A stretch of 25,526 nucleotides of DNA from a virus, in IMG/VR virus record IMGVR_UViG_3300043465_000807, positions 1 to 25,526 of that record, one strand, 5' to 3'. The position numbers were made by a program, and so were the translations under genes. The notes under the pieces are model-generated. The model was not told the DNA's origin. It saw only the letters and a list, made by a program, of their open reading frames with translations, and made no database searches. Below are positions 7,214 through 21,829 of the stretch, in pieces. Position 1 is the first letter of the stretch; each line of letters starts with the position of its first letter.

Positions 7214-7238
7214 TTTTTCTTTTTGAGTGAGTGTGACA

Positions 7239-10200
7239 ATGGCAGATGCAGCCTCTGGTGGCGATGAAATCAAGAGGATTATCCTCAGAGCCGAAGCTCT
7301 AAACTTTTCCGGTACTCAAAAAGAAGTATTATCTTTAAATCAGGCTCTTGAGAACCTCAAAAAAACCCTAAACTCTGGCGCTGGCTTAAATAAGGGCCAG
7401 CTGAATGATATCAACAAAGAGCTTGATATTCTAGAGAAGAAAGCCACTAACTCTACTAACGCCAGCAAAAAGGGCTTAGATGATATGCGGGTTTCAGCTG
7501 AGAGGCTGAATCAGACGCTTAAAAATACTGCTCAGATGTCGGGGGCTAATTTTACTGGTAGTAGTAGCAAAGATAAGCAAGCTCTTAAGGATTATCAGAA
7601 AGAGTTGAGCACTTTAGGCATTGGCATTGTTGCTAAGCCTAAATATGTAAGTCAAGTTGTTGGCAATGTTCAAACTATTTGGGGCGCTCTGAAAGAGGGC
7701 AAAAACGCCGGTGTTGCTACTCAGAGGTCACTTGACTCTATAGCAACTGGTCTTCCAAGTTCTATGCCGACTGTTACTAGTTTGCAACGGATCAGTATCG
7801 CTGCAGGTGTTACTAGGAAGGGTCTTGATGGAGTTACACTCGCCATGAAGAACTCTGCTAAGAATGCTCAGTGGACTGGTATGCAGATGATTCAGGGTAT
7901 CACTCTCCCTCTCGTCGGCGTAGGCACTGTAGCTCTTAGAACTTTTGATTCTGTAAATAAAGAGATGATTCAGTTGAAGAAGGTGACTGAATATAAAGAA
8001 GATTATTCTGCTCTTGAAAAAGAAATTCAAAAAGTTGCTGCTGCATATGGTCTTACATTAAAATCTTCAGCCGCTCTGTTTACAGATATTGCTGCGCTTG
8101 GTAAGTCAGGCAAGGATATTGGAGAATGGTCTGATTCTGTTGCTAAACTTTCGATGGTTGGTGATATCGATCCTTCCGGAGCGATGGAATTCTTCCGAGT
8201 TATTAATGCTATCTTCACTGATGGAAGTGTTCAGCAGACTAACGAGATTCTTGCTCAGCTGAGCGCTGTTTCTGATGAGACTTCTCTGCAGCTTAAAGAT
8301 TTGGCAGCCGCTTTCCCCGAAGTTGCCCCTGTCATGCAACAGATGGGATTCTCTGCTGCTGGCGTTGCTTCTTCTTTGGCTGGTATGTATCGTCGTGGTA
8401 TTCCAGCTACGGAAGCTGCTCATGGTTTGAAGTTCGCTTTGCAGCGCCTTGTTGTTCCGACTAAAGATTCTAAAAAGATTATTGATGAATTAGGATTCTC
8501 ATTCACTGACGCCAATGGCAATATGAAAGATGGCGCAATACAGATAATGAGACTCGCAGAGCAACTCAATAATATGAATGATGCACAAAGACTCGCCGCC
8601 GCGCCAGAGCTTTTTGGAGGTAGGCAGTCTGCAAGAATGAACTCTTACTTCGCTGATGTTTCTCTTGGTAATGAAGAATATAGAAGGCTCAAAGCTGGAA
8701 TTTTAGATGTAAATGAAGTCCAGTCAGATTTCTTGAGAGGTATGATTGCTTCCGGCGAGATTCCAATGGAAGGTGTAGCTAGCGCTGCTGACAGGTATGC
8801 TAAAGCAGTTGAGGAGATTCAGAAAGATCCTAGCAAGGCTTTGGCGAGAATTAAAGCGCAGATGCAGACTGTTTCTTATGAAATCGGCAAGTCGCTCGCT
8901 CCAGCTGTCATCACTGTTGGTGAAAAGCTCGTTGAACTTCTTCAGAAGTTTACTGCTGCGCCCCCAATTATTCAAAAAATGGCACTCGCCTTTGGCGCTC
9001 TAGTTGCCGCCATTGGTCCAATTAGATATATTTTTGCTCAGATGAAATATACTTTCGTCTCGTTTGTGGAAGTCTTTAATAAGTTCCTACCTAAGATGAG
9101 AGATCTTCCGGGCGGAATGTCTCAGGTTCAAAAACTTTTTGATATAGATCCTATGAGGAAAGATATTGCTCAAATTGGCGATAAGTTTGTTCTTGTTCAA
9201 AAAGGTTTTATGAACAAGATTCGAATGAAATTTGGGTTACCTCCTAAAGCTAAGGGTCAAGTTCTAGACTATTTTGATAGCTTTGATCAAGCTGCCGCTA
9301 GTACTGCTGGTACAGCCACTGCTGCAAATAGTAAGATTGCGGCGAGTAATGCAATTCTTCAAACAAGCGAGGATCAAGTTTCTGATGAATTTGATGAAAC
9401 TGCAAGATCTGCTGCGAGAAGAGTTGCTGCAACTGATGCAATTATTGCAGCCAATCAAAGATTGACTGTATCAAATGTTGTAGCGAAGGCTGCCGAGTCT
9501 GCTACTGGTGCAATTCCGATGCCCGGTGTCCCAATTCCAAGACCAATGCCATCTGCCCCCGGCGCTGCTCCCATTGCCGGGCTTGCTACGACTGCAATTA
9601 GTCAGTATAGCGCTTCGACAGAAGCAGGCATGAATAAAATCCTTAAGCTGAAAGAGCGATTGAAGCTTCTTGATGGCGAAGAGGCTGCTGCTACTTCTAG
9701 AAAAATCTCTGCACTATCAAGCCAGTATAATGTAACTGAAGATGCTCTTGAGCAATTTGCTAAATCAAAAGTTGCTCAAAAGGCTGCTGCAGATAGCATA
9801 GATGATATAGGCAGAAGTGCTCTTGGAGCAGGTAAGCAGATGAAGATGCTTACCGCTGGCACTCAAAGTACCGCTTTGGCTGCTAGCGCTGCTGGCGCTG
9901 CCACTAAGGGAGGATTTCTTTCTACAATCTTGGCTGGTGGCCCTATAGTTTGGGGAATACTTGCAGCCATTGCTGCAGTTATAGCAGTAATTGGTATAGC
10001 CTTTTTGTTGCTAAAAGATCGTTGGGATCAAGTTAGAAAAATTATTGAACCTTCTTTGCAAAAGTTGAAAACTGCATTTGATAATGTCAAGAGTGCTCTA
10101 AAAGTTCTTTGGGAAGCGTTTTCTTCTCTTGGCGATGTTTTTACAAATATCTTTGGACAGCTCGGCTCTGCTGAAGCCGCTGGAGATTCCTTTGCCAATG

Positions 10201-13200
10201 GATTTGGTGGAGCACTTTCTACTGTAATAGATTTCATCGCTGAGCTTGTTCAGGGTGTGTCTTACGCAATTGAAGAGATTTCTAAGTTTGTAGAGTATCT
10301 AACTCCTGTTGTTGAATCCTTTGCTTATAAAGTGAAAGATGTCGTGGGCTTTATTACATCTTTGCTTAAGGGAGATCTTGTTGGAGCATTTAAGTTTCTG
10401 GTGGCCGCTGTCTACGAGGTTGCTCGTCCATTTGTTATCGTATGGCAATATATAGTCAAAATTACAGCATGGTTTGTTGCAAATGTATATTCTCTCCTTG
10501 GTAGATTAGCTAATGTTCTAGTTAAGAATCCAATTGGAAATGCTTTGGAAAGCAGTAGTGCGTCTATTCATGATTGGGCAAGTAACTTAAATTTTGTCGG
10601 TCTTATAGATGATAAGCTTAGAACAGGTCTTGGTGGGGTTTTCGGATCAAGTACACAAAGCGCGGCAGATGAAGCAGAACCAGAAGTAGTCGATGCCGGT
10701 AACGGGCTCGGAGACACTTTTTCGGAGAGTTTCAATGGGGCTGTAGAGTCTGGTGTTGGAAATGAATGGTTGAAAGATTGGCTCTCTCAGATTAAGAGTG
10801 TTCTTGATTCGAAACTTGGAGAACTTAGACAGTCTGCTATAGACGCACTGAAAAAAGCTCATGAAGAGTCTCTCAAAGTTTATGATGAGAGAGTTACTGC
10901 AATTGAAAATCAAGAGAAAGCTGAAGAGAAGCTTCTTAGATCTCAGCAGTATATTGCTAAGAGAAGAGAGCTTCTTCAGCAGCGTGAACTTGATAAGATG
11001 AACTATCGAAATGATAGGGCTAGAGCTCTTTATGAGGGCAGAGTTGATGATGTTCGTCGTCTTGATCTTGAAGAGCAGAAGAATAGATCCAACTTCAACA
11101 GGCAAGTCACCGATCTTGATGATGATAGAGGCAAGGAACTTCTTAAAGATCAGAGAGATGCGCTTAAAGCTCAGATCAAAGCAGAGCAAGATGCGGCCAA
11201 GGAAAGATTTGGAATTCAAGAGGAAGCTTTTCAAGATAGTCTTAATTTAATTACTAAGTATGCACCTAAGACTGTCGCTGAATACAATGCTATGCTTGGG
11301 AAAATCAATACTCTTCTTCGAGACAATGGAGTTTCTACTTGGCCTGAGATGGCTAAGGATGGCATGACTGCGTTTGCTGAAGTATTCAGGGAAGCTTCGG
11401 ATAATATTAGGGAAGATTTTGCTTGGAGCGGCAAGAGCCTTGCTACCGCATGGATGGAAGGTTTTGCTCCTGCGGATGTTATCGCTATTCTGAGGCAGAA
11501 TCTTTCTGGTGGAGATGCTGGCGGAACTCCGGGCGGTGGCGGCGGTGGCGGAGGATTCGATATGCCACCATCCTCCAAAGATGGTGGCGGAGATATCCCC
11601 AAGGGACCGAAGCTTGATTCTATATTTGGCGGAGTAAGTGATTTCATTAAAGAGTGGTGGCCAAATATTTTGGCATTTATGATGAGCCCATTTACGGGAA
11701 TCGCCAGTCTCATTATTAAATTCTTGATGGGTGTGGATTGGGGCGCAGTTGGAACTGCCATCTGGAATGGCATAAAAACTGCGCTCGGTGCCGTTGGCGG
11801 GTTCTTCGGTACTATATTTGAGGGCGCAGAGGGCGGTATAGCTGCTTCATTAGATCCAGTTATCGGAACAGTTCAAGATGTTTTCTCAACTATCTACAAC
11901 ACAGTTGAAAGTGTACTCAATCCGATCATTAGAGTAGTCCAGACTGTCTTTACACAGGTGTCTAATATTATAAAGAGAGTTGTATTCCCAGTAGTTCAAA
12001 ATCTTGGCAAGGTATTTAGCACTGTGTTTGGAACGATAAAAAATACAATAACTGGTGTCTGGACTAATACTATTCAACCGATATTTAATTTTATTGGACA
12101 GATTATAACAGGGTTCTTAGTGCCAGTATTTCAATTGCTGATCGGTGTCATTTCCATACCATTCATGCTTTTCAAGCACGCCGTCTCCGTCGCTTGGGAC
12201 GCAGTTAAACCAATCTTCCAATCTATTTGGGGTTGGATTACGGATAGTTTAATCCCCTCCTTCGGTAATATCGGAGATGTAGTCAGTACTGTGTGGGGTG
12301 GAATTACTGATGCAATTTCGAGAGCTTGGAATGGCTATATCAAGCCGGTGTTTATGCATATCTGGAATACAATCTCATCAGTCTTAATGCCTGTATTTAA
12401 CTTCCTGAAAGATACTGTGATGACAGTGTGGAGTTGGATTTCGGCTGCGATTGGATGGGCTTGGGGCGCAATACAGCCTGTGTTTGGAGCAATACAATGG
12501 TATATTGGTGTTCTTGCCGGAGCCTTTACATGGTTCAAGAATACATCTTACAACATTTGGGTTGGTGTTGCAGCTATTATTTCAAATGCGTGGACTGCAA
12601 TTAGCAATACTATAACCGGCGTATGGAATGGTATTATGGATACTATTGCTGGTGTGTGGAATTGGGTTGCAACTAAAATTGAAAATGTTGTAAATGGTCT
12701 TATTGATACATATAATAGACTTCCCGGCTTCATGAGGCCTTGGACTATTGACAAAGTAGACCTCCCGGAGATTAGACGAGCTCAAGGTGGCCCTATGGAG
12801 GGAACTGGGTTTATGGGTGTAGTGAATAAACCTACGTACCTTGTCGGAGAAGGAAGATCAGCTTATCCGGAATATGTAATTCCTACTGACCCCGCTTACA
12901 GAAATCAAGCCTCGGAACTTCTTGGGAAAGCTGCTGCTGCAATTGGCTCGAAGGCTGGAGCAGTCAATGCTTCTCTTGCAAATACATCTTCTTCAATGTC
13001 GGCCGCTTCTGGATATGCTCAGAGCACAAACATTAGCTCAGATCAAAATGTTTATATATCAGTTGATACATTCATTGGCGAAGAGCAGTGGTTCTCTGAG
13101 TTGGCAAGCAAATATAATATGAAGACTGTGCCACGACAGCGCAAGGTTGATGGGCAGCAGAAAAGAGTGGTATCATCTTATAATGATAGGTGGAGCTTGA

Positions 13201-13205
13201 AATGA
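7239..13205 (+). CDS. Tail tape measure protein, TP901-like
   Basis: About 1988 residues from ATG 7239; a GTG at 7227 would add four. The N-terminus is helical. Residues about 230-410 resemble the TP901 tape measure core (AALFTDIAALGKSGKDIGEW, VASSLAGMYRRGIPATEAAH). A hydrophobic segment at about 900-925 (GILAAIAAVIAVIGIAFLLL) could insert in the host membrane. A charged coiled coil covers about 1204-1333, and a Gly run about 1430-1450. A Trp/Phe-rich helical repeat region covers about 1467-1820, and the C-terminus has YLVGEGRSAYPEYVIPTDPAY as in other tape measures. At 0.15 nm per residue, a helix this long suggests a tail near 300 nm, as a rough estimate. It follows the chaperone pair and overlaps the next gene by 4 nt. 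Confidence 0.92.
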   Translation: MADAASGGDEIKRIILRAEALNFSGTQKEVLSLNQALENLKKTLNSGAGLNKGQLNDINKELDILEKKATNSTNASKKGLDDMRVSAERLNQTLKNTAQMSGANFTGSSSKDKQALKDYQKELSTLGIGIVAKPKYVSQVVGNVQTIWGALKEGKNAGVATQRSLDSIATGLPSSMPTVTSLQRISIAAGVTRKGLDGVTLAMKNSAKNAQWTGMQMIQGITLPLVGVGTVALRTFDSVNKEMIQLKKVTEYKEDYSALEKEIQKVAAAYGLTLKSSAALFTDIAALGKSGKDIGEWSDSVAKLSMVGDIDPSGAMEFFRVINAIFTDGSVQQTNEILAQLSAVSDETSLQLKDLAAAFPEVAPVMQQMGFSAAGVASSLAGMYRRGIPATEAAHGLKFALQRLVVPTKDSKKIIDELGFSFTDANGNMKDGAIQIMRLAEQLNNMNDAQRLAAAPELFGGRQSARMNSYFADVSLGNEEYRRLKAGILDVNEVQSDFLRGMIASGEIPMEGVASAADRYAKAVEEIQKDPSKALARIKAQMQTVSYEIGKSLAPAVITVGEKLVELLQKFTAAPPIIQKMALAFGALVAAIGPIRYIFAQMKYTFVSFVEVFNKFLPKMRDLPGGMSQVQKLFDIDPMRKDIAQIGDKFVLVQKGFMNKIRMKFGLPPKAKGQVLDYFDSFDQAAASTAGTATAANSKIAASNAILQTSEDQVSDEFDETARSAARRVAATDAIIAANQRLTVSNVVAKAAESATGAIPMPGVPIPRPMPSAPGAAPIAGLATTAISQYSASTEAGMNKILKLKERLKLLDGEEAAATSRKISALSSQYNVTEDALEQFAKSKVAQKAAADSIDDIGRSALGAGKQMKMLTAGTQSTALAASAAGAATKGGFLSTILAGGPIVWGILAAIAAVIAVIGIAFLLLKDRWDQVRKIIEPSLQKLKTAFDNVKSALKVLWEAFSSLGDVFTNIFGQLGSAEAAGDSFANGFGGALSTVIDFIAELVQGVSYAIEEISKFVEYLTPVVESFAYKVKDVVGFITSLLKGDLVGAFKFLVAAVYEVARPFVIVWQYIVKITAWFVANVYSLLGRLANVLVKNPIGNALESSSASIHDWASNLNFVGLIDDKLRTGLGGVFGSSTQSAADEAEPEVVDAGNGLGDTFSESFNGAVESGVGNEWLKDWLSQIKSVLDSKLGELRQSAIDALKKAHEESLKVYDERVTAIENQEKAEEKLLRSQQYIAKRRELLQQRELDKMNYRNDRARALYEGRVDDVRRLDLEEQKNRSNFNRQVTDLDDDRGKELLKDQRDALKAQIKAEQDAAKERFGIQEEAFQDSLNLITKYAPKTVAEYNAMLGKINTLLRDNGVSTWPEMAKDGMTAFAEVFREASDNIREDFAWSGKSLATAWMEGFAPADVIAILRQNLSGGDAGGTPGGGGGGGGFDMPPSSKDGGGDIPKGPKLDSIFGGVSDFIKEWWPNILAFMMSPFTGIASLIIKFLMGVDWGAVGTAIWNGIKTALGAVGGFFGTIFEGAEGGIAASLDPVIGTVQDVFSTIYNTVESVLNPIIRVVQTVFTQVSNIIKRVVFPVVQNLGKVFSTVFGTIKNTITGVWTNTIQPIFNFIGQIITGFLVPVFQLLIGVISIPFMLFKHAVSVAWDAVKPIFQSIWGWITDSLIPSFGNIGDVVSTVWGGITDAISRAWNGYIKPVFMHIWNTISSVLMPVFNFLKDTVMTVWSWISAAIGWAWGAIQPVFGAIQWYIGVLAGAFTWFKNTSYNIWVGVAAIISNAWTAISNTITGVWNGIMDTIAGVWNWVATKIENVVNGLIDTYNRLPGFMRPWTIDKVDLPEIRRAQGGPMEGTGFMGVVNKPTYLVGEGRSAYPEYVIPTDPAYRNQASELLGKAAAAIGSKAGAVNASLANTSSSMSAASGYAQSTNISSDQNVYISVDTFIGEEQWFSELASKYNMKTVPRQRKVDGQQKRVVSSYNDRWSLK
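12060..12510 (+). repeat. Trp/Pro/Phe repeats of about 45 residues in the tape measure
   Basis: Four related units start with Trp codons at 12060, 12195, 12327 and 12462, that is, 45, 44 and 45 residues apart. Each has W-x4/5-[IVK]-x-P-[IV]-F followed by further aromatic positions. A period of 44-45 fits four 11-residue helical motifs, a spacing known from tape measures. The similarity is at protein level rather than identical DNA. Confidence 0.6.
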
Positions 13206-13618
13206 CGTCAGGTAATAGTCTCTTTTATCCAGCCGCTATTTGGATAGATAATGTTCAGCTTACAGATCAGGGTAGAGGCCCTATAGCGCGAGGTAGAGAT
13301 GAAAGATTCATCTCTAATGAGCTTGCCAATGGTAAAAGAAAAAGATATGTAAAGGCTGTCAAGCATACTTTTTCTATTAGTTGGTCGTATCTTCCAGATG
13401 ATAGCACTTGCACGATCGATGGCTATGCAGCTAGAGACACTCTGGTTGCACTTCTTGGAGATAGCGAGCAGTCTCATACATTACGATTTTTCTATCAAAA
13501 TGCAAAGTATGAGGAAATGACTGTCTTTGTAAATTCCTATTCAGAGAGTCTTATCAAGAGAGATCCCGTTAGTGGAATTTTCTTGTGGGAAGTAAGCTTG
13601 GAACTTGAGGAATCATGA
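13202..13618 (+). CDS. Dit-like/minor tail protein
   Basis: 138 residues, starting in an ATGA overlap with the tape measure stop; an in-frame GTG at 13190 is less likely because ATG 13202 follows AGGTGGAG at a good distance. The protein is beta-rich: it opens with LFYPAAIWIDNVQLTDQGR, continues with an HTFSISWSYLPDD strand pair, and ends EVSLELEES. Placement between tape measure and hub is that of the distal tail protein (Dit), the ring that joins tube and hub. I do not see a clear family signature, so it could also be another small tail-tip protein. Confidence 0.65.
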   Translation: MTSGNSLFYPAAIWIDNVQLTDQGRGPIARGRDERFISNELANGKRKRYVKAVKHTFSISWSYLPDDSTCTIDGYAARDTLVALLGDSEQSHTLRFFYQNAKYEEMTVFVNSYSESLIKRDPVSGIFLWEVSLELEES

Positions 13619-16600
13619 TTCCTGCATCACAAAACTTTGTTGAGAGTCTTTCTGACGATGTTCAGGTTGTAAAGCCTTCTGTGAAAGCGTGGATGGCTGA
13701 CTATCGTTATTTAGAGAATTTGACAGTGCATACTAGTAGTCATACTTATTCAAAGCAAATCTTAGATAGATCACCCAAAATTTACTTTAAGCTTGATAAA
13801 ACTGATTATAATACAGTATATAATAAAATTTCCGCAACTATTTCTATTGCAAATCCAGCTGTCATCACATCTAACGGCCATAAATTAAATGCTGGAACTC
13901 CAGTAACTTTCTCTACTACTGGAGCTTTGCCAACTGGCATAACAGCGGGGACTACTTATTATGTGCAGAATCCTCTCACAAATACATTTAATATCAATAC
14001 GATACAAGCAAATTCTTTAAATCCCACACTTTCGACGGGGAGGGTTGTTACCTCAGGCACTCAGAGCGGGAGTCATTCAGTCACTTATTATCTAAATAGA
14101 GTGAAAGATCTTGGAGATTTACATCTTGAGGCTGCTTATGGTAATTCAACTAGTGGATCTCCTGTACAAAATACTAATCTATCTTTCGAGAGTTACGGGC
14201 TTACTGATTATGATGGAACTAATAAAAATATCGAGATTCTTAACCCAAAAAGAGTTATAGATACTTTCAATTATCATTCTTTTTATGAACTTGGACCATT
14301 TTATTCACCCTCAGTGGATATGTCTATGTATTCTTGGAGAACTACTCTGGGATCTCAGTGGGGCAGCGCTTGGATAGATAATTCAGATATATTTTACTAT
14401 AAACCTGTATATTTATATCATGATACAATGACTCTCGATCACTTTGTAGATTTTAAACTTGGAACTATTGGAAGTTCATTTGGTGGGGTTGGTGCAATTG
14501 TCAGGTTTATCGATGATGAAAACTTTATCTACTGCAGACAGAGGGCCGCTTCAGATGCTACTTCTGGAACTATGGCTATATATAAGGTTATCAATGGTAC
14601 TCACACTCTTGTCAAAAGCATAGACTCAGTTAGATTTTCTGCTTCTAATTTTTATAGATTTGAAAGTAAATATAATACTTTTACTTTGTACAATATGGGA
14701 ACAACTGAACCTACAAATACAAGCGCCGGTACAGTTTTATCGAATGGCGGAGTAAATCTCACCTGCTATATAGATGATGAAATATTCAGAAGCCCGGAGG
14801 CAACTCAGGTAGGTCTTTTAAATGCTGGAATAAAAACCTATAATTCATCATATACACGTTCATTTACTATTCCGCGAAATACATTTTCTTTTAGCTACTT
14901 CGGATGCTATGGATTCAACTTTCTTTCGGGAAGCCATTATTTCGATGGCTCTAAGTATGTTTTAGTTTCTTCTTCAGATACACAAAACTCCAAAGATAAA
15001 TTTTCTTCAATTAATAACGCTGAAGATTTTTCATATTCTTTTATTTTTAAAAAACTATCTGGCGGAGCAAGTATACAAACACTATTATGGCTTGGAGATA
15101 ATTTATCTAATACTGCACTAAGAATTAGTCATTCTACTTCTACAAATAGAATTTCCGTAAGAGTAATAGATAATGCCACTAATAATGAATATTCAATTTC
15201 TTCATCGTCAACTATTAGCAATGACACTCTATACTATGTGCAGCTCGCAAAAAATGGAGACTCTCTTGAGCTATATGTAAATGGAGTTTTGGATGGAACC
15301 GCGTTGCTTCCTTCTAATTTTTCATTAAAAGATGTCTCAACTAATAATACCACCTACCTTCTTCTGGGTGCAGATTACGCCAGAACTTCGTTTGGGGAGT
15401 CAGATTCTTATAGATTGTTCTATGGATATATTTCAGAGCTTGCTGTTTTTGATTATAATGTTAATAGCTTTGATTCTTTATCAATGTTTAATAGTATAAA
15501 TAATGACTCAACTCTTCCATCTGAAACATCTGATAAATATTTTGTAGCAGAGAATACCGTTGATGGGCTTCCGGAAGAAACTTTTCTTTATGGCTTTACT
15601 AATTTTCTAAATAGTAAGGGAAATGCAATTAGGAGCAATAATACAACTTTTGCTCCGGAATTAAAGATAGAGAGCGATGAGAATCAAGGTATTGAAGATA
15701 ATTATGGATGGATGTCGAGATGTCAAAGCGATTCTTCTGGAGACTTCTCCACATCTGATCATATTATTTTAGAATTTGATAATCACTACTGCAACAGAGT
15801 ATTTCTATCTACAGGTTATCTTTACGGCCGTATAAATGATTTTGATTATATAATTTACAAAAGTGATCTGACTACAATCTCTGGTTCATCAAGTTTTGGT
15901 GGAGAATCTTATATTTATATTGAACCCGAGGATTTGGGATTATTTGTTAATGAATATTTGGAGATTGTAGGTATAAAAATAATACCAACTAGCACAATTA
16001 ATCCTTATGATTATGCCAGACTTTTTTCGATTAACCCAATTTGGGAAGTTGACTTTAGTGACTACGTTATAAGCTTCAATATAGACAAAGTGAGAGACAA
16101 TTTTGATGCGTCACTTCCCATCGGAGCTACTGCAGCAAACAATGGCAGCATTGAGCTAAACAATACTGATTTGATCTTTAACCCATATGGAAATTCACTA
16201 TTTGGACAGTATATTAATCCTGATACTAAGTTCTTCATATCTCTTGAACATGAACTTCTTAAATATGGCACTACTGAAATTGTGCCTATTGCATTAGAAA
16301 TGTATGCAGACACTTGGTCTATTAGTACGTCGGGTATGTCTGTCTCTGTAGATTTAAGGGATTACTCAAAATTTTTGCAAGAAGGTACTGTAAAGGGATA
16401 TGTGTCTCAAGGGCTAACTGCCGGAAAGTCTATTCATGATTTGGTAATTTCTAGCGGATTCCCAAATCGCAGAATTTCCTTTTTCGATAAATACCGGGAA
16501 GAAATTTCATCCGATGAGCCAGATGTTTGGCTTACCTTGACTGAGCCTACCTTTCGCAGTAGTATAGCCTATTCAGATGATCAATGCAATAGGGTCTACG

Positions 16601-18477
16601 GATACAACTCTTCGTACCTATCTGCAGAGTATGGTTCATCGATTATCTATTCGGATGTTTTATCTGCTCAAGATGATACATCGAGAATAATAGATGAGCT
16701 TAGTGTAGATACATATAACCCTACATATAAAACTAGCTCGCTTAATCCCAATGGAACAATTGACTTGTATAGAACAGATGTGTTCGGAAGATGGGCTCCT
16801 GATCAATTTGACTTCTTCACATTTGGGATTGTATCCTACGTAAAAGATCCTGACACTCTAGCGGCGGGTTCGTATTATGATTTGTTTACTTATAAAGTAC
16901 CTTCAACATCGTATGGTATGTATCTTCAGTACAAGAAGTCTGAAATAGATAATTCCAAGATTGTGTTTAAATTTTATTTTGTAGATAGCGCTGGAACTAC
17001 TTTTTCTATCGAATCTGGCAGTTTTGATATAACAAAACCCCACATTATTTATGTAGCTAAGGGCGGAGAGAACGAAGACGAATATCGTCTGTATGTGGAT
17101 GGATACGAGAGAGCAGCAGTTACAACTCCTCAAATACCTTTTGCTGGCTCTGGTGGTACTCCGAGGTTCTTAGTCGGAAGTGCGGGTTCAGCTTTTCTTA
17201 GCAATTTTACATATTTCGACTACTGCTTGACAGATGAAAGAATCTTCCAGCACTATGCTACTTCTCAGTTCTCTATTATTCCAACATTCAACTTGCTATA
17301 TGCGAAGGATCAAACTTACTGGGATGCTGTTCTTAACATAGCTACAGCTGACCTTGGTATGTTTTATATCGATGAATACGGAGATTTTAAATATGAGTAT
17401 AGAAATGTCTTACATGATGCCGTAAATGATAGGTATCAGAATAGTCAATATACATTCTCCGATGATATAAATATTATAGATGGAAGTCTGGCGTCAGAAG
17501 TTCAGACGAATAAAGTAAATGTAAAAATCAATACTGCAAAGGCAAGTTCATCAGGGTTCCAGAACCTCTGGTCGGCGGAAGAAGGGGAGTCATTAGTTGT
17601 CTCATCTATTGTCGATAATATATATCCTAATTCAACTTCTATAGAGGTAAAAAATACAACTAACCCTCAATTTCTTGCTTCTGGATACGTGAAAATTGAT
17701 GATGAAATTATTAAGTATGGCGGATTAGCTAACAATGTATTGTTGAATATACAGAGAGGTATGTTCGGCACTCCGATTTCGTGGCACTCAGCAGGATCTC
17801 GCGTTAGAGAAGCGAGGCATTATAATATTGAATATTCAAGTTCTCCTGCGGTGAGCGTCAGATATCCTTTTATCACCCAGTATATTTATGAGGATACTGT
17901 TAGTATTGACAGATATAGCGTAGGAGCTTCGAGTACGGAGATTGTTGTGTCTGCGAAAGATCCGGGCCTTCCGGTACTTACTGAAAGCGGCGTGGATTAC
18001 TATTTCCGTAGAGCAGAGTCAGTATCAAACATTCTAATCCTGCAGGGATCAGACCCTCTTACCGGAGTCAACAATAGCTTTGTTATATCGGGGATACCAG
18101 TTTCGAGTGGAGAAAGCCAAGAGACTGTGACGGAGTACTCCGCTCAAATGCTTGATAATATAAGGAAGTATAGGCTGAAAGAGCTTGATATTAACAATGA
18201 TTTTATTGGCAATAAGATTTATGCTCAGATAGTAGCGGACCATGTTATTGGTTATTACTCAGATCCAATTAAAATTATGAACTTTGAAATTCATGGAGTT
18301 CCAACTCTTCAATTGGGTGATTTGATTACGGTGTCTAAGTTCGAAAAAATTGGTATAATAGATCAAGACTTTTGGGTCATACAATCAACCTTGTCGTATG
18401 ATGGAGGAATTAAACAGACCCTCTCTGTCAGAGAGTACTCTCCGACAATCCCAGCGCCTGAGCTTAAGTTTATTTAA
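13615..18477 (+). CDS. Tail hub/fibre protein with inserted lectin-like domains
   Basis: 1620 residues, ATGA overlap with the gene before. A LamG/ConA-like domain begins at about residue 45 (YSKQILDRSPKIYFKLD) but is interrupted. Residues about 70-162 form an FCCH-like beta module (VITSNGHKLNAGTPVTF, TGITAGTTYYVQNP), and a second beta-sandwich covers about 260-400. The LamG fold then appears to resume at YFDGSKYVLVSS (about 442) and end near 620. Hub-like parts follow from about 810 (WEVDFSDYVISFNIDKV, SVDLRDYSKFL). Another LamG-like insertion spans about 970-1210, and the hub resumes at TFNLLYAKDQTYWDAVLNIA. A module with DDEIIKYGG and IQRGMFGTP (about 1350-1390) and a C-terminal GVPTLQLGDLITV segment complete it. 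The protein probably forms the trimeric tail-tip hub and binds host surface sugars. Domain borders are by eye. Confidence 0.75.
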   Translation: MIPASQNFVESLSDDVQVVKPSVKAWMADYRYLENLTVHTSSHTYSKQILDRSPKIYFKLDKTDYNTVYNKISATISIANPAVITSNGHKLNAGTPVTFSTTGALPTGITAGTTYYVQNPLTNTFNINTIQANSLNPTLSTGRVVTSGTQSGSHSVTYYLNRVKDLGDLHLEAAYGNSTSGSPVQNTNLSFESYGLTDYDGTNKNIEILNPKRVIDTFNYHSFYELGPFYSPSVDMSMYSWRTTLGSQWGSAWIDNSDIFYYKPVYLYHDTMTLDHFVDFKLGTIGSSFGGVGAIVRFIDDENFIYCRQRAASDATSGTMAIYKVINGTHTLVKSIDSVRFSASNFYRFESKYNTFTLYNMGTTEPTNTSAGTVLSNGGVNLTCYIDDEIFRSPEATQVGLLNAGIKTYNSSYTRSFTIPRNTFSFSYFGCYGFNFLSGSHYFDGSKYVLVSSSDTQNSKDKFSSINNAEDFSYSFIFKKLSGGASIQTLLWLGDNLSNTALRISHSTSTNRISVRVIDNATNNEYSISSSSTISNDTLYYVQLAKNGDSLELYVNGVLDGTALLPSNFSLKDVSTNNTTYLLLGADYARTSFGESDSYRLFYGYISELAVFDYNVNSFDSLSMFNSINNDSTLPSETSDKYFVAENTVDGLPEETFLYGFTNFLNSKGNAIRSNNTTFAPELKIESDENQGIEDNYGWMSRCQSDSSGDFSTSDHIILEFDNHYCNRVFLSTGYLYGRINDFDYIIYKSDLTTISGSSSFGGESYIYIEPEDLGLFVNEYLEIVGIKIIPTSTINPYDYARLFSINPIWEVDFSDYVISFNIDKVRDNFDASLPIGATAANNGSIELNNTDLIFNPYGNSLFGQYINPDTKFFISLEHELLKYGTTEIVPIALEMYADTWSISTSGMSVSVDLRDYSKFLQEGTVKGYVSQGLTAGKSIHDLVISSGFPNRRISFFDKYREEISSDEPDVWLTLTEPTFRSSIAYSDDQCNRVYGYNSSYLSAEYGSSIIYSDVLSAQDDTSRIIDELSVDTYNPTYKTSSLNPNGTIDLYRTDVFGRWAPDQFDFFTFGIVSYVKDPDTLAAGSYYDLFTYKVPSTSYGMYLQYKKSEIDNSKIVFKFYFVDSAGTTFSIESGSFDITKPHIIYVAKGGENEDEYRLYVDGYERAAVTTPQIPFAGSGGTPRFLVGSAGSAFLSNFTYFDYCLTDERIFQHYATSQFSIIPTFNLLYAKDQTYWDAVLNIATADLGMFYIDEYGDFKYEYRNVLHDAVNDRYQNSQYTFSDDINIIDGSLASEVQTNKVNVKINTAKASSSGFQNLWSAEEGESLVVSSIVDNIYPNSTSIEVKNTTNPQFLASGYVKIDDEIIKYGGLANNVLLNIQRGMFGTPISWHSAGSRVREARHYNIEYSSSPAVSVRYPFITQYIYEDTVSIDRYSVGASSTEIVVSAKDPGLPVLTESGVDYYFRRAESVSNILILQGSDPLTGVNNSFVISGIPVSSGESQETVTEYSAQMLDNIRKYRLKELDINNDFIGNKIYAQIVADHVIGYYSDPIKIMNFEIHGVPTLQLGDLITVSKFEKIGIIDQDFWVIQSTLSYDGGIKQTLSVREYSPTIPAPELKFI

Positions 18478-18485
18478 GGAGAAAT

Positions 18486-19025
18486 ATGCCGTATGACAAA
18501 GTAGAGTGGGGGAAGGGTACAAAACTCGATTACGAGAAGCTGAACCAGATGTCTACTCATGACAATCTTATCAAAGATAAAATTGATTTGATGCCAAGGG
18601 GTATTATCGCTTGGTCAAAAAGTGCTCAGACATCTTTGGCGAAAACAAGCAATGATGGCACAGACCATGTTGTACCCGGCTTCTCTGAAATTCCTTTTAC
18701 GGTTGGCAGGGATAGAATCGTATCAGTTACTGTTCATCCTTTCTACTCTCAGGATGTTCCAGCTACTCTTATGTTTGCCATGAGATTTGACAATCAAACA
18801 AACTTTGGAGACTCTTATGGACAAGCAATTCCGAGATTCGGGGGCGAAAGCGGAGCTTTCAGCCCATCTCTTTTTTATAAAAATGGTGAAGTATATTTAA
18901 CTGAGGGCGATCATACCCTATCACTAATCTATGCAGCTCACGAAGATAGCTTCACTTTGGACTCAGGAATATTGTTGATAATTGAAGATATAGGCTATAA
19001 TTATAATCAAATAGTGAGGTATTAA
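18486..19025 (+). CDS. Tail tip/fibre paralog 1
   Basis: 179 residues with AAGGAG before the ATG, 8 nt after the hub gene. The N-terminus (EWGKGTKLDYEKLNQMSTHD, then MPRGIIAW) follows the W-x4-L-x3-KL-x6-N pattern seen at the start of many phage minor tail proteins, a likely attachment segment. The rest is predicted beta-sandwich and ends LLIIEDIGYN. It shares both ends with the next two genes. It is probably a short tail-tip subunit or receptor-binding protein; the ligand is unknown. Confidence 0.65.
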   Translation: MPYDKVEWGKGTKLDYEKLNQMSTHDNLIKDKIDLMPRGIIAWSKSAQTSLAKTSNDGTDHVVPGFSEIPFTVGRDRIVSVTVHPFYSQDVPATLMFAMRFDNQTNFGDSYGQAIPRFGGESGAFSPSLFYKNGEVYLTEGDHTLSLIYAAHEDSFTLDSGILLIIEDIGYNYNQIVRY

Positions 19026-19026
19026 T

Positions 19027-19572
19027 ATGAGTTCCTATAAATTTGTACAGTGGTCTAAAGAGTCTACTATTGATGCTGGCAGACTTCAGGCACTATCTGA
19101 CAATGATGATTATTTAAACAATTTAGCATCAAATATCCCAAGAGGTCTGATATCATATACTATAAATGAAAGCGCCCCAACACTTTATGCTGCTGGAACG
19201 CACTACTTCCCCAGATTCGAGAAAACATTCGAACTTCTTGAAGCTAGAAGTATTAAATTTTCTCTATTCCCCGGATATATGAATTTCCCCGGTACTGGTG
19301 TTAAAAGTTGTACAGTAGAACTTGAAATAGATGGGGGGTTCGAAGATTTTTTTGTAAGGCATACGCAAAATTTCCCAACTCCAGAAGGTTTCCTATACGA
19401 TGATACTATGTGCGCTCCGCTTCAACAAGTTGTTGATTTAGATATTGGCGTTCACACTATAAAGGTTCAATTTATTACGAATGCATCAGTTTACCCATTT
19501 ATTGGGGGTAAATTTTTAATAGAGGATATAGGGACGGGTGTCGGGCGTTTGTTCACACTTCCCTTCTTTTGA
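19027..19572 (+). CDS. Tail tip/fibre paralog 2
   Basis: 181 residues, one base after paralog 1 stops; GAGGT lies 9 nt before the ATG. The N-terminal pattern (QWSKESTIDAGRLQALSDND, then IPRGLISY) and the ending KFLIEDIG match its neighbours, but the middle is strongly different, with EARSIKFSLFPGYM and VELEIDGGFEDFF strands. Conserved ends with a variable beta body fit subunits that share an attachment site and differ in binding surface. A tail-tip role is inferred from position. Confidence 0.65.
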   Translation: MSSYKFVQWSKESTIDAGRLQALSDNDDYLNNLASNIPRGLISYTINESAPTLYAAGTHYFPRFEKTFELLEARSIKFSLFPGYMNFPGTGVKSCTVELEIDGGFEDFFVRHTQNFPTPEGFLYDDTMCAPLQQVVDLDIGVHTIKVQFITNASVYPFIGGKFLIEDIGTGVGRLFTLPFF

Positions 19573-19596
19573 TGAGAACAATTTGGAGAGATAAAA

Positions 19597-20139
19597 ATGG
19601 CTGAGTTCAATGATGATGGAAGTTTTAAGACAGTGAAATTTGGGAAAGAAATGTCACTTGATTATTCAAATAAGCTTCAACAGCTTATGTTGAATGATCA
19701 ATATTTAAAAGATAAGATCGAATCTTTTCCCAAAGGTCTTATAGCTCACAATTTTTTTACAATCCCAAATTCATCAAGCATTCCGTTCGGATCTGCCATT
19801 GCTTCTATTGATTTTGCTTGTGATGGAGATAGAATGTTGAAGTTTTACGCTGGCCTGAGCCACCTTTTACCACAATCTTGGGACAGCAAGGTTATTTTGA
19901 CTCCGAAAGTTGATGGGGCTGAATTTGGATATAAGGGCACCGGAAAGGCTTGGACTGCTTCTCCAGCTCCCTCTTTCACTATGGGGTCGGTATTTTTTGT
20001 GACTGAGGAACCTCTTACTTCTGGGCAGCATAATTTCTCTCTTTATGTAAATACTTCTGCAAGTTTTCAAACTTGTAAGTTGAGTATTATAATTGAAGAT
20101 GCTGGAAAATATATACCGATGACAAAATCTAAGTCATGA
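19597..20139 (+). CDS. Tail tip/fibre paralog 3
   Basis: 180 residues with GGAGAG before the ATG, 24 nt after paralog 2. It begins with a short extra segment, then KFGKEMSLDYSNKLQQLMLN, FPKGLIAH and a beta body ending LSIIIEDAGKY. The N-terminal motif has one extra residue compared with paralog 1. The HNH gene starts inside its stop codon. As for the other two, function is inferred from position and shared ends. Confidence 0.65.
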   Translation: MAEFNDDGSFKTVKFGKEMSLDYSNKLQQLMLNDQYLKDKIESFPKGLIAHNFFTIPNSSSIPFGSAIASIDFACDGDRMLKFYAGLSHLLPQSWDSKVILTPKVDGAEFGYKGTGKAWTASPAPSFTMGSVFFVTEEPLTSGQHNFSLYVNTSASFQTCKLSIIIEDAGKYIPMTKSKS

Positions 20140-20594
20140 GTTTGGCGTCTAGACGCAATAATATTGCTTGGAAAAAAGATAAATTTGGTGATGGAAATCC
20201 AAATTTTAATGGCGGAAGATATGTCGATGATAAAGGGTATATAAGGGTTCTATGTCCTGATCACCCTTTCAATAATAAAGGCTATATTTATGAGCATCGA
20301 CTTGTAGCGGAAGCTATACTTGGCCGGTATCTCCAGTCATGGGAGACTGTTCATCATATTAACGAGATTAAGATAGACAATAGATGGGAAAATTTCTACC
20401 TAACGACTATCCCCGAACATAGTTCTATACATCGTGAAGGTAAAAAACAGAATAAAGAGCGTAGGAAAAATACAAGTGATAGAGCTAAAAAACGAGCAAA
20501 AACCGGCAAGAGAAATAATCTTGGACGTTTTGAGAAAATTGAGCTAAGAAGTGATACACTTATTGAAACCGAATTGGAGAACAACATTCAATGA
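20136..20594 (+). CDS. HNH endonuclease
   Basis: 152 residues in an ATGA overlap with paralog 3, and itself ending in an ATGA overlap with the next gene. The centre has YEHRLVAEAILGRYL, then ETVHHINEIKIDNRWENFYL and a closing EHSSIH, the usual pattern of phage HNH nucleases: His pair (about residues 72-73), Asn in DNR-x-EN, and final His. The C-terminal third is very basic (KKQNKERRKN and on), which suits DNA binding. It is probably a free-standing homing endonuclease, though the perfect translational coupling at both ends suggests it is long established. A role in packaging or replication cannot be excluded. Confidence 0.85.
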   Translation: MSLASRRNNIAWKKDKFGDGNPNFNGGRYVDDKGYIRVLCPDHPFNNKGYIYEHRLVAEAILGRYLQSWETVHHINEIKIDNRWENFYLTTIPEHSSIHREGKKQNKERRKNTSDRAKKRAKTGKRNNLGRFEKIELRSDTLIETELENNIQ

Positions 20595-21829
20595 AACATT
20601 TTATATCTGAGGATGATGAAGGCCTCAACCTTCCAAATATCGATGGGAAGGAGTATATCCCGCCGAAGAGGGAAAAGGAAATTAAGACTCCCGCTTCTCT
20701 TAAGCCCGGAGTTGACTGGGACGGAGAGGAAGTTCAGGTTACGTCAGAGGTTTATACGGAGCCTGTCCGTGACTGGGATGAGCTTTTAGTAGAGCTTGGT
20801 TATGATCCAGAGTTGCATGAAATTATAGAACCAGTAAAGATTTCTTGTTGGGATACTCCAGCAGGCGAAGGCGAGATCAAAAGACTTTTTTCATATAAAG
20901 TTGGAATCAGAGCTAAGCGCACTACTCAGTATCGTGATGAGGATTATAAGGATCTTGTAACTTTAATCAAGAAGCATCGTCCTCTTGGTGATCGAATTGT
21001 TGATGGAGACGCTACATTTGTGGTATGTCTTTCTGATTGGCAGCTTGGAAAAGCTGACGGTGATGGAACTGACGGCACAATTAAGCGCATCTTGAGGATG
21101 ATCGATGATACTACTGAGAGAATCCGGGAGCTTCAGAAGCTTGGCAGGAAGATGAAGACTCTTGTTGTCGCTGGGGTTGGCGATATGGTTGAAAATTGTG
21201 AGGGGCATTATGCATCACAAACCTTTACTGTTCAGCTTAATCGTCGTCAGCAGATTAGAGTTCTTCGTCGCCTTTTGACAAAGGCAATTACTACTTGGTC
21301 TAAGATGTTCAGTGAGGTAATTGTCCTCGCTGTTCCCGGAAATCATGGAGAGAACAGAAATGCTTCCGGCAAGGCATTCACAACTAGGGGCGACAACGAT
21401 GATGTCGCAGCTTTTGAGATGGTGGCAGAAATTCTCGCTTCGAATCCCGAGGCGTATGGCCATGTTAGGTTTATACTTCCTGAGGATGAGATATCACTTG
21501 TTGTTGAGGTGAGTGGTCGTTATCTCGGCTTTGCTCATGGCCATGTCACTAGCAATGGTGCTGATCCTCAAAAGAAAATTAAAGAATGGTGGAAGGCTCA
21601 GAATTTTGCCAACAATCCTATCGGATCTGTGAATATTTTAATCACTGGGCATTATCATCATTTTTCCGTAATTGAACATGATTTTGATAAGATTCATATG
21701 CAATGTCCTACTATGGATGGTGGCAGTGAATGGTTTAAAGATCTTACTGGAGTTGAATCACGTCCCGGAACGCTCACCTTTGTAATTGACAAGGGTGGCC
21801 GTCCATATCGTGATCTTGAGATAATTTGA
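20591..21829 (+). CDS. Metallophosphoesterase (calcineurin-like)
   Basis: 412 residues in an ATGA overlap with the HNH gene. Residues 1 to about 140 are acidic and unrecognised. The catalytic fold follows, with LSDWQLGK (Asp149, Gln151), VGDMVENC (Asp198), PGNHGEN (Asn251, His252), FAHGH, and GHYHHF (His354, His356). These are the metal-binding motifs of the Mre11/calcineurin-like superfamily, except that the usual His of D-x-H in the first motif is Gln here. Similar proteins encoded near tail genes are common in actinophages, with no settled role. Possible substrates are nucleic acid or a phosphodiester in the cell wall or envelope; which one is not shown by the sequence. Confidence 0.85.
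   Translation: MKHFISEDDEGLNLPNIDGKEYIPPKREKEIKTPASLKPGVDWDGEEVQVTSEVYTEPVRDWDELLVELGYDPELHEIIEPVKISCWDTPAGEGEIKRLFSYKVGIRAKRTTQYRDEDYKDLVTLIKKHRPLGDRIVDGDATFVVCLSDWQLGKADGDGTDGTIKRILRMIDDTTERIRELQKLGRKMKTLVVAGVGDMVENCEGHYASQTFTVQLNRRQQIRVLRRLLTKAITTWSKMFSEVIVLAVPGNHGENRNASGKAFTTRGDNDDVAAFEMVAEILASNPEAYGHVRFILPEDEISLVVEVSGRYLGFAHGHVTSNGADPQKKIKEWWKAQNFANNPIGSVNILITGHYHHFSVIEHDFDKIHMQCPTMDGGSEWFKDLTGVESRPGTLTFVIDKGGRPYRDLEII

Follow-up and report, generated by a model that had tools for sequence, protein, structure and literature searches.

Tandem TNF/C1q-like paralogs as candidate subunits of a mixed tail tip in a probable actinobacterial phage

Introduction

The TNF/C1q-like jelly roll is a trimer-forming type of fold that is common in phage tips. 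In complement C1q, three tandem paralogs (A, B and C), each with a trimerizing stalk and a TNF-like head, come together as an A-B-C heterotrimer. Among phages, the tail fibre gp24 of the cyanophage Pam3 is a trimer whose N-terminal helix bundle docks to the baseplate and is followed by a TNF-like domain (PMC9608196). In the mycobacteriophage Mysterious, cryo-EM revealed a baseplate heterotrimer made of gp35, gp36 and gp37, and a central fibre whose helix trimerizes to plug the hub (PMC13252515). In our search of the literature, this preprint was the only case of a heteromeric tip built from paralogs.

Here we analyze three neighboring genes in a viral contig (IMG/VR record IMGVR_UViG_3300043465_000807), the whole of which, at 25,526 bases, is referred to as the window. 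A preliminary description had suggested that their products could form either a hetero-oligomeric tip or a set of alternative receptor binders. As far as our searches reach, the trio represents a TNF-like family new in such an arrangement, which by analogy might perhaps work like the family from Mysterious.

The locus, its genomic context and the likely host

The 5' part of the window codes for a capsid protein, a tape measure protein (7227-13205), a 142-aa protein and a 1620-aa minor tail protein, followed by the trio (179-181 aa). Downstream of these are genes for an HNH endonuclease, a phosphoesterase-like protein, a small membrane protein, a MerR-like protein, WhiB, a DnaB-type helicase and a primase. 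The features discussed below are:

13615..18477, + strand: hub-like minor tail protein of 1620 aa that contains a LamG domain and is presumed to dock the trio (phrog_10359, E 1e-30; Laminin_G_3, E 2e-9)
18486..19025, + strand: copy 1, 179 aa, with anchor at residues 1-41, helix 16-35 and predicted TNF/C1q-like head (ORF; AlphaFold2 model; top match copy 1 of the related contig L095)
19027..19572, + strand: copy 2, 181 aa, with anchor at residues 1-43, helix 17-36 and predicted TNF-like head (ORF; AlphaFold2 model)
19597..20139, + strand: copy 3, 180 aa, with anchor at residues 1-49, in which F replaces W, and head (BLASTP match to copy 1 over nearly the full length, 2e-9)
18486..18608, + strand: anchor segment of copy 1 (48% identical to the L095 copy 1 anchor, versus 29-33% to those of copies 2 and 3)
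19027..19155, + strand: anchor segment of copy 2 (47% to the L095 copy 2 anchor, versus 21-30% to those of copies 1 and 3)
19597..19743, + strand: anchor segment of copy 3 (44% to the L095 copy 3 anchor, versus 28-37% to those of copies 1 and 2)
18981..18995, + strand: IEDIG, on the final head strand of copy 1 (model strand E161-171)
19519..19533, + strand: IEDIG of copy 2 (sequence and model)
20092..20106, + strand: IEDAG of copy 3 (sequence)
20136..20594, + strand: HNH endonuclease gene, adjoining the knob family in all relatives that extend that far
20591..21829, + strand: metallophosphoesterase-like gene, used as census anchor (weak match to Pfam Metallophos_2, E 0.1; 77% identical in the related contig L004)

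We place the trio at the tail tip because it adjoins the 3' end of the gene for the 1620-aa minor tail protein in a genome with a tape measure gene, and because the family occupies the same place in all relatives. The WhiB match scores above the Pfam cut-off, and phage whiB genes are regarded as a marker of actinobacterial hosts (PMC10202952); thus, the host is probably an actinobacterium, and fresh water as the habitat would be a guess from that link. A scan of genome contigs recovered no provirus.

Several other features of the window came to light. The C-terminal part of the tape measure protein matches the endolysin family phrog_971 (E 6e-14), and a 681-aa protein encoded upstream of the capsid gene (77-2122) contains a domain of the Hva1_TUDOR type (E 7e-6). 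Over about 105 bases, the HNH gene is 76% identical in DNA to an HNH gene of Streptomyces phage Wakanda. Phosphoesterase-like genes beside the tail module are very common: 571 of 600 pattern matches in viral contigs were relatives.

Three highly diverged paralogs in a single run of genes

The three ORFs, all on the + strand, have the lengths previously noted for them, and the sequence patterns reported from inspection are likewise in place. Near the N-terminus these are W8GKGTKLD, W9SKESTID and F15GKEMSLD in copies 1, 2 and 3, followed by PRGII, PRGLI and PKGLI, and near the C-terminus IEDIG, IEDIG and IEDAG, with the D and the G of the last motif invariant among 24 relatives. The divergence of the middle was also rightly perceived: the bodies are 18-22% identical, and the shared signal lies mainly in the N-terminal ~43 residues and the C-terminal strand. 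Pairwise BLASTP comparisons of the window copies returned E-values of 1e-7, 2e-9 and 2e-7, and full-length comparisons against shuffled sequences gave z-scores of 8.4, 9.8 and 5.7 for the three pairs; the bodies of copies 2 and 3 taken by themselves were no more alike than shuffles (z 0.2). A single common family HMM matches all three. By these sequence comparisons, they are true, highly diverged paralogs.

The genes abut in one run, each preceded by a sequence resembling a ribosome-binding site (AAGGAG, GAGG and GGAGAG), and promoter signals between them do not rise above the level in shuffled sequences. There are no direct repeats in 17800-21000, inverted pairs in that interval are weak (74-79%), and none was found at the trio through which a head could be inverted. 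We accordingly rejected phase-variable (invertible) and DGR-mediated diversification at the locus, for which inverted or template/variable repeats would be expected. An artefact of ORF calling was dismissed since L095 has the same genes in the same order and another relative, L027, also has a trio. Recent duplication was set aside as well, given the low identity of the bodies and a trio that probably predates the split between the window and L095.

Predicted fold of the head and its anchor

Run on an alignment of 24 members of the family, AlphaFold2 yielded models with pLDDT 76 and pTM 0.73 for copy 1 and pLDDT 77 and pTM 0.71 for copy 2; the loops around residues 107-128 are poor in both (pLDDT under 50). 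The two models share one plan, with a predicted helix at residues 16-36, then a β-sandwich with IEDIG on its final strand. Thus, the concern that the predicted folds might differ was not borne out for the two copies that were folded. In structure comparisons, copy 2 is closest to bacterial TNF-like lectins, namely PLTL (9ib7; VIA Z 12.2, rmsd 2.5 over 127 aa) and Bc2L-C (Z 11.4, 2.7 Å over 127 aa), and also matches TNF ligands, exosporium proteins and C1q heads (Z 9.0). Copy 1 matches the TNF-like superfamily, including the spike knob of phage phi812, at VIA Z 8-9, which is borderline if taken alone, and the needle knob of Sf6 at Z 7.0. In both models, the body is predicted to be a ten-stranded jelly-roll sandwich of the TNF/C1q-like type, with 127 of 135 residues aligned in copy 2 and a borderline assignment for copy 1. 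Among the viral predictions in BFVD, both copies match actinophage proteins; copy 2 further matches C1q-domain proteins, minor tail proteins and, in Streptomyces phage Lika, a protein of the DUF7298 family. A sequence search of PDB chains with the family profile returned only chance matches to antibodies.

On the basis of these models, the body of copies 1 and 2 is predicted to be a TNF/C1q-like jelly roll with IEDIG as its last strand, and residues ~1-43 to form an anchor comprising a short strand and a helix of ~20 residues. The DUF7298 protein of phage phiScoe56, which has no such helix, starts near PRGI and ends near HDVG; this suggests that the head domain runs from the P-[RK]-G motif to the I-E-D-x-G motif and that the W/F-x-K motif lies in an anchor added to it.

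Relatives carry one copy or three

Copies 1 and 3 as queries retrieved nothing usable from known phages, and neither did copy 1 alone or the three aligned window copies from viral contigs. We therefore reached relatives through the C-terminus of the hub-like protein and the phosphoesterase instead of the trio proteins. This recovered two clades of viral contigs, A and B, with a fixed order of hub, an S74-chaperone fibre (in clade B only), knob family, HNH and phosphoesterase. The hub-like gene lies upstream of the knob family, directly or nearly so, in all relatives, the place of the HNH gene is conserved in both clades, and clade A loci have no further fibre gene between hub and HNH.

Copies were counted by iterated HMM searches, with which whole-contig searches agree. 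Six clade A relatives (L004, L028, L042, L043, L044 and L175) and every clade B locus with a match have a single copy, while three are present in the window, L095 (a 49.6-kb contig) and L027 (a 43-kb contig); no two-copy locus occurs among the clade A and B loci counted. Hence, the copy count called for by the preliminary description gives one or three and never two, and the single genes at this place are related to the trio, where unrelated ones would have spoken against its reading.

In one of these relatives (L028:4546-6774), the phosphoesterase is interrupted in frame by ~330 residues, probably an intein, with a LAGLIDADG-like match (E 2e-4) slightly below the Pfam cut-off. Tandem paralogs also turn up upstream of phosphoesterases elsewhere. 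In L126 (564-3979), six genes (172-218 aa) lie upstream of a related phosphoesterase, most neighbors being similar to one another (z 6-13), and this array falls outside the knob family by HMM. Further pairs or triplets from other phage groups are found at L124:2218-3656, L136:1697-3135, L142:2560-4028 and L101:1437-3029 (z 18-49).

Constant anchors and exchangeable heads in single-copy phages

Across the six clade A phages with one copy, anchors are 58-86% identical and heads 24-59%. Single-copy anchors are conserved in clade B as well (53-100%), and this conservation in both clades leads us to infer that single-copy phages have the ancestral anchor. The gene of L175 looks like a chimera that joins the anchor of one lineage to the head of another: its anchor matches L044 at 34/44 positions and L043 at 26/44, whereas its head is 34% identical to L044 and 59% (78/132) to L043. 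From the very end of the knob gene onward, the DNA of L175 and L044 is 93.6% identical for 5.9 kb, with the module junction at the border of the knob and HNH genes. Diversification of the head as the origin of shared ends with differing bodies is thus best supported by the single-copy relatives, the sequences of which point to a modular design for a presumptive receptor binder with a constant anchor and an exchangeable head.

The recombination border itself is sharp (L175:6283 versus L044:6532, at the 3' end of the knob gene), with hub and head diverged upstream of it. The HNH gene begins exactly there and may contribute to the exchange.

Each anchor of the trio keeps to its place

The anchors of all window and L095 copies are 36-53% identical to single-copy anchors, and by sequence none of the copies appears to have retained the ancestral anchor. 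Yet the C-termini of the hubs of the window and L095 are as close to those of single-copy phages (42-58% identity) as the latter are to one another (41-56%). Between the window and L095, anchors at the same position are 48, 47 and 44% identical and those at different positions 21-37%, the ranges being without overlap. Full-length scores behave alike (224 for the 1-1 pair, 120 for 2-2 and 148 for 3-3, with 39-117 for other pairs), and F stands in place of W in copy 3 of both phages. Taken by itself, the copy 2 body scores slightly better with copy 1 of L095 (z 5.2 versus 4.4), the positional match of copy 2 being mainly through the anchor. This matching comes from one phage pair, in which the observed pairing, the best of six, would arise by chance one time in six if the margins are ignored; the L027 copies do not map onto the window positions.

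Given the position-wise matches of the anchors and the full-length scores, the trio probably arose before the window and L095 separated, with its order kept and one anchor for each place. A single origin was neither supported nor rejected by tree analysis, whether for the window copies (AU p 0.17) or for those of L027 (0.315). Since all trio branches are very long, the tree does not date the duplications.

Comparison with described tail-tip proteins

For the Mysterious system, we used the phage Acadian, which we take to belong to the same cluster (B5). Its gp40 agrees with the description of Mysterious in length and in residues D19-D20-E21, and its gp35-37 all match phrog_282 (E 1e-82, 7e-78 and 1.5e-60) and DUF7172, which identifies them as three tandem diverged paralogs. 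Like the ~200-aa genes of Mysterious, the trio comprises three consecutive diverged paralogs downstream of an actinophage hub, with β-sandwich cores (predicted in copies 1 and 2). Unlike the trio, the Mysterious chains have an N-terminal β-hairpin arm rather than a helix, and six heterotrimers ring the baseplate. No sequence relationship was detected between the trio and phrog_282/DUF7172 (best hmmsearch E 0.5; hhalign probability 0.2%).

DUF7298 (PF23972, phrog_4817) appears to be a distant relative of the knob-family head. The three window proteins have no match at or near its Pfam gathering cut-off (27 bits); among relatives, copy 1 of L027 scores 26.2 bits and L042 18.1. The likeness extends to a head that starts with PRGI and ends with D-V-G, to invariant F, R and G residues, to the neighborhood and to the fold match with phage Lika; the representative from Streptomyces phage phiScoe56, a 169-aa baseplate-region protein, is single-copy and without the N-terminal anchor helix. 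Phrog_10025 gave no significant full-length match, its E-values of 0.04 and 0.11 being confined to the anchor segment.

Pam3 gp24 shares with the trio, as predicted, an N-terminal helix ahead of a TNF-like domain, but is a single-gene homotrimer with a glycine-rich tip and a dedicated chaperone. The lectins PLTL and Bc2L-C (its N-terminal domain), the best fold matches of copy 2, have just 12-14% identity to it over the aligned residues and are not virion proteins. C1q, an animal protein with a collagen stalk, offers an analogy only.

A mixed tip weighed against other arrangements

From what can be read in the sequences, namely paralogy, a copy number of one or three, constrained anchors with variable heads and anchors matched by position, we propose that the three genes are expressed together and that their products are non-interchangeable parts of a single structure at the tail tip. 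The N-terminal anchor would dock to the tail hub, presumably the 1620-aa protein, and to the fellow chains, while the TNF/C1q-like head, with IED[IA]G as its closing strand, would probably contact the host surface, as its position, fold and variability suggest by analogy. In most relatives, the product of the single gene would form a homotrimeric knob in one hub socket. In the window lineage, triplication would have been followed by divergence of all three anchors, turning the copies into position-specific subunits, the simplest assembly of which would be a C1q-like A-B-C heterotrimer. An attachment end of its own for each copy, together with a changeable head, suggests that the three probably form one mixed tip and are not interchangeable spares. 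We give subunits of a single tip, most simply an A-B-C heterotrimer, about an even chance. The fuller proposal of a viral counterpart of C1q, in which tandem TNF-like paralogs with their own anchors form an obligate A-B-C knob of a siphophage, descended from a single-gene, homotrimeric ancestor with head swapping, is more tentative and falls short of probable.

Position-specific anchors would fit equally well with three homotrimers at separate sites or stacked at the tip, each anchor differing as its socket differs. TNF-like folds are mostly homotrimers, and Mysterious has several different baseplate accessory proteins. Yet one copy should then keep the ancestral socket and anchor, and all window and L095 copies lie outside the single-copy range (36-53% versus 58-86%); two new sockets would also be needed at once, and no two-copy intermediates were seen. 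On balance we find three homotrimers rather unlikely. A tip made of all three chains explains both the change in all three anchors and the fidelity of each to its place.

The trio might instead plug or decorate the baseplate in a structural capacity, with no direct role at the receptor. Clade B relatives also have the S74-chaperone fibre, which could bind the host, and the Mysterious heterotrimer is mainly a structural bowl; against this, single-copy heads are much more variable than their own anchors (24-59% versus 58-86%), the head in L175 is chimeric, the fold of copy 2 is nearest to sugar-binding TNF-like lectins, and clade A lacks another fibre gene between hub and HNH, all of which makes such a role improbable. 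Least probable to us are alternative receptor binders that compete for a single socket, giving virions that differ in host range. Heads are indeed very variable and exchangeable behind a shared anchor, as in L175 (anchor 34/44 to L044, head 78/132 to L043). Alternatives for one socket should, however, retain one anchor, and these differ; further, the genes form one run with their own ribosome sites and no inverted repeats or separate promoters, and their order is conserved between the window and L095. Thus, of the two possibilities raised in the preliminary description, the hetero-oligomeric tip is favored, in view of the one-or-three copy number, the loss of the ancestral anchor, the position-specific anchors, the predicted trimer-type fold and the Mysterious precedent, and the alternative binders are not.

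Implications

If the trio is a heterotrimer, one tip could present three binding faces in a fixed geometry, and it would be a second case beside Mysterious, from an unrelated protein family. The single-copy relatives for their part offer a clean modular design for a presumptive receptor binder, with a constant anchor and a head that can be exchanged, in phages whose actinobacterial hosts are probably uncultured. Studies of how homo-oligomers become hetero-oligomers after duplication have mostly used cellular proteins; in this case, the one-gene and three-gene states occupy the same place in closely related phages, which opens the transition to study.
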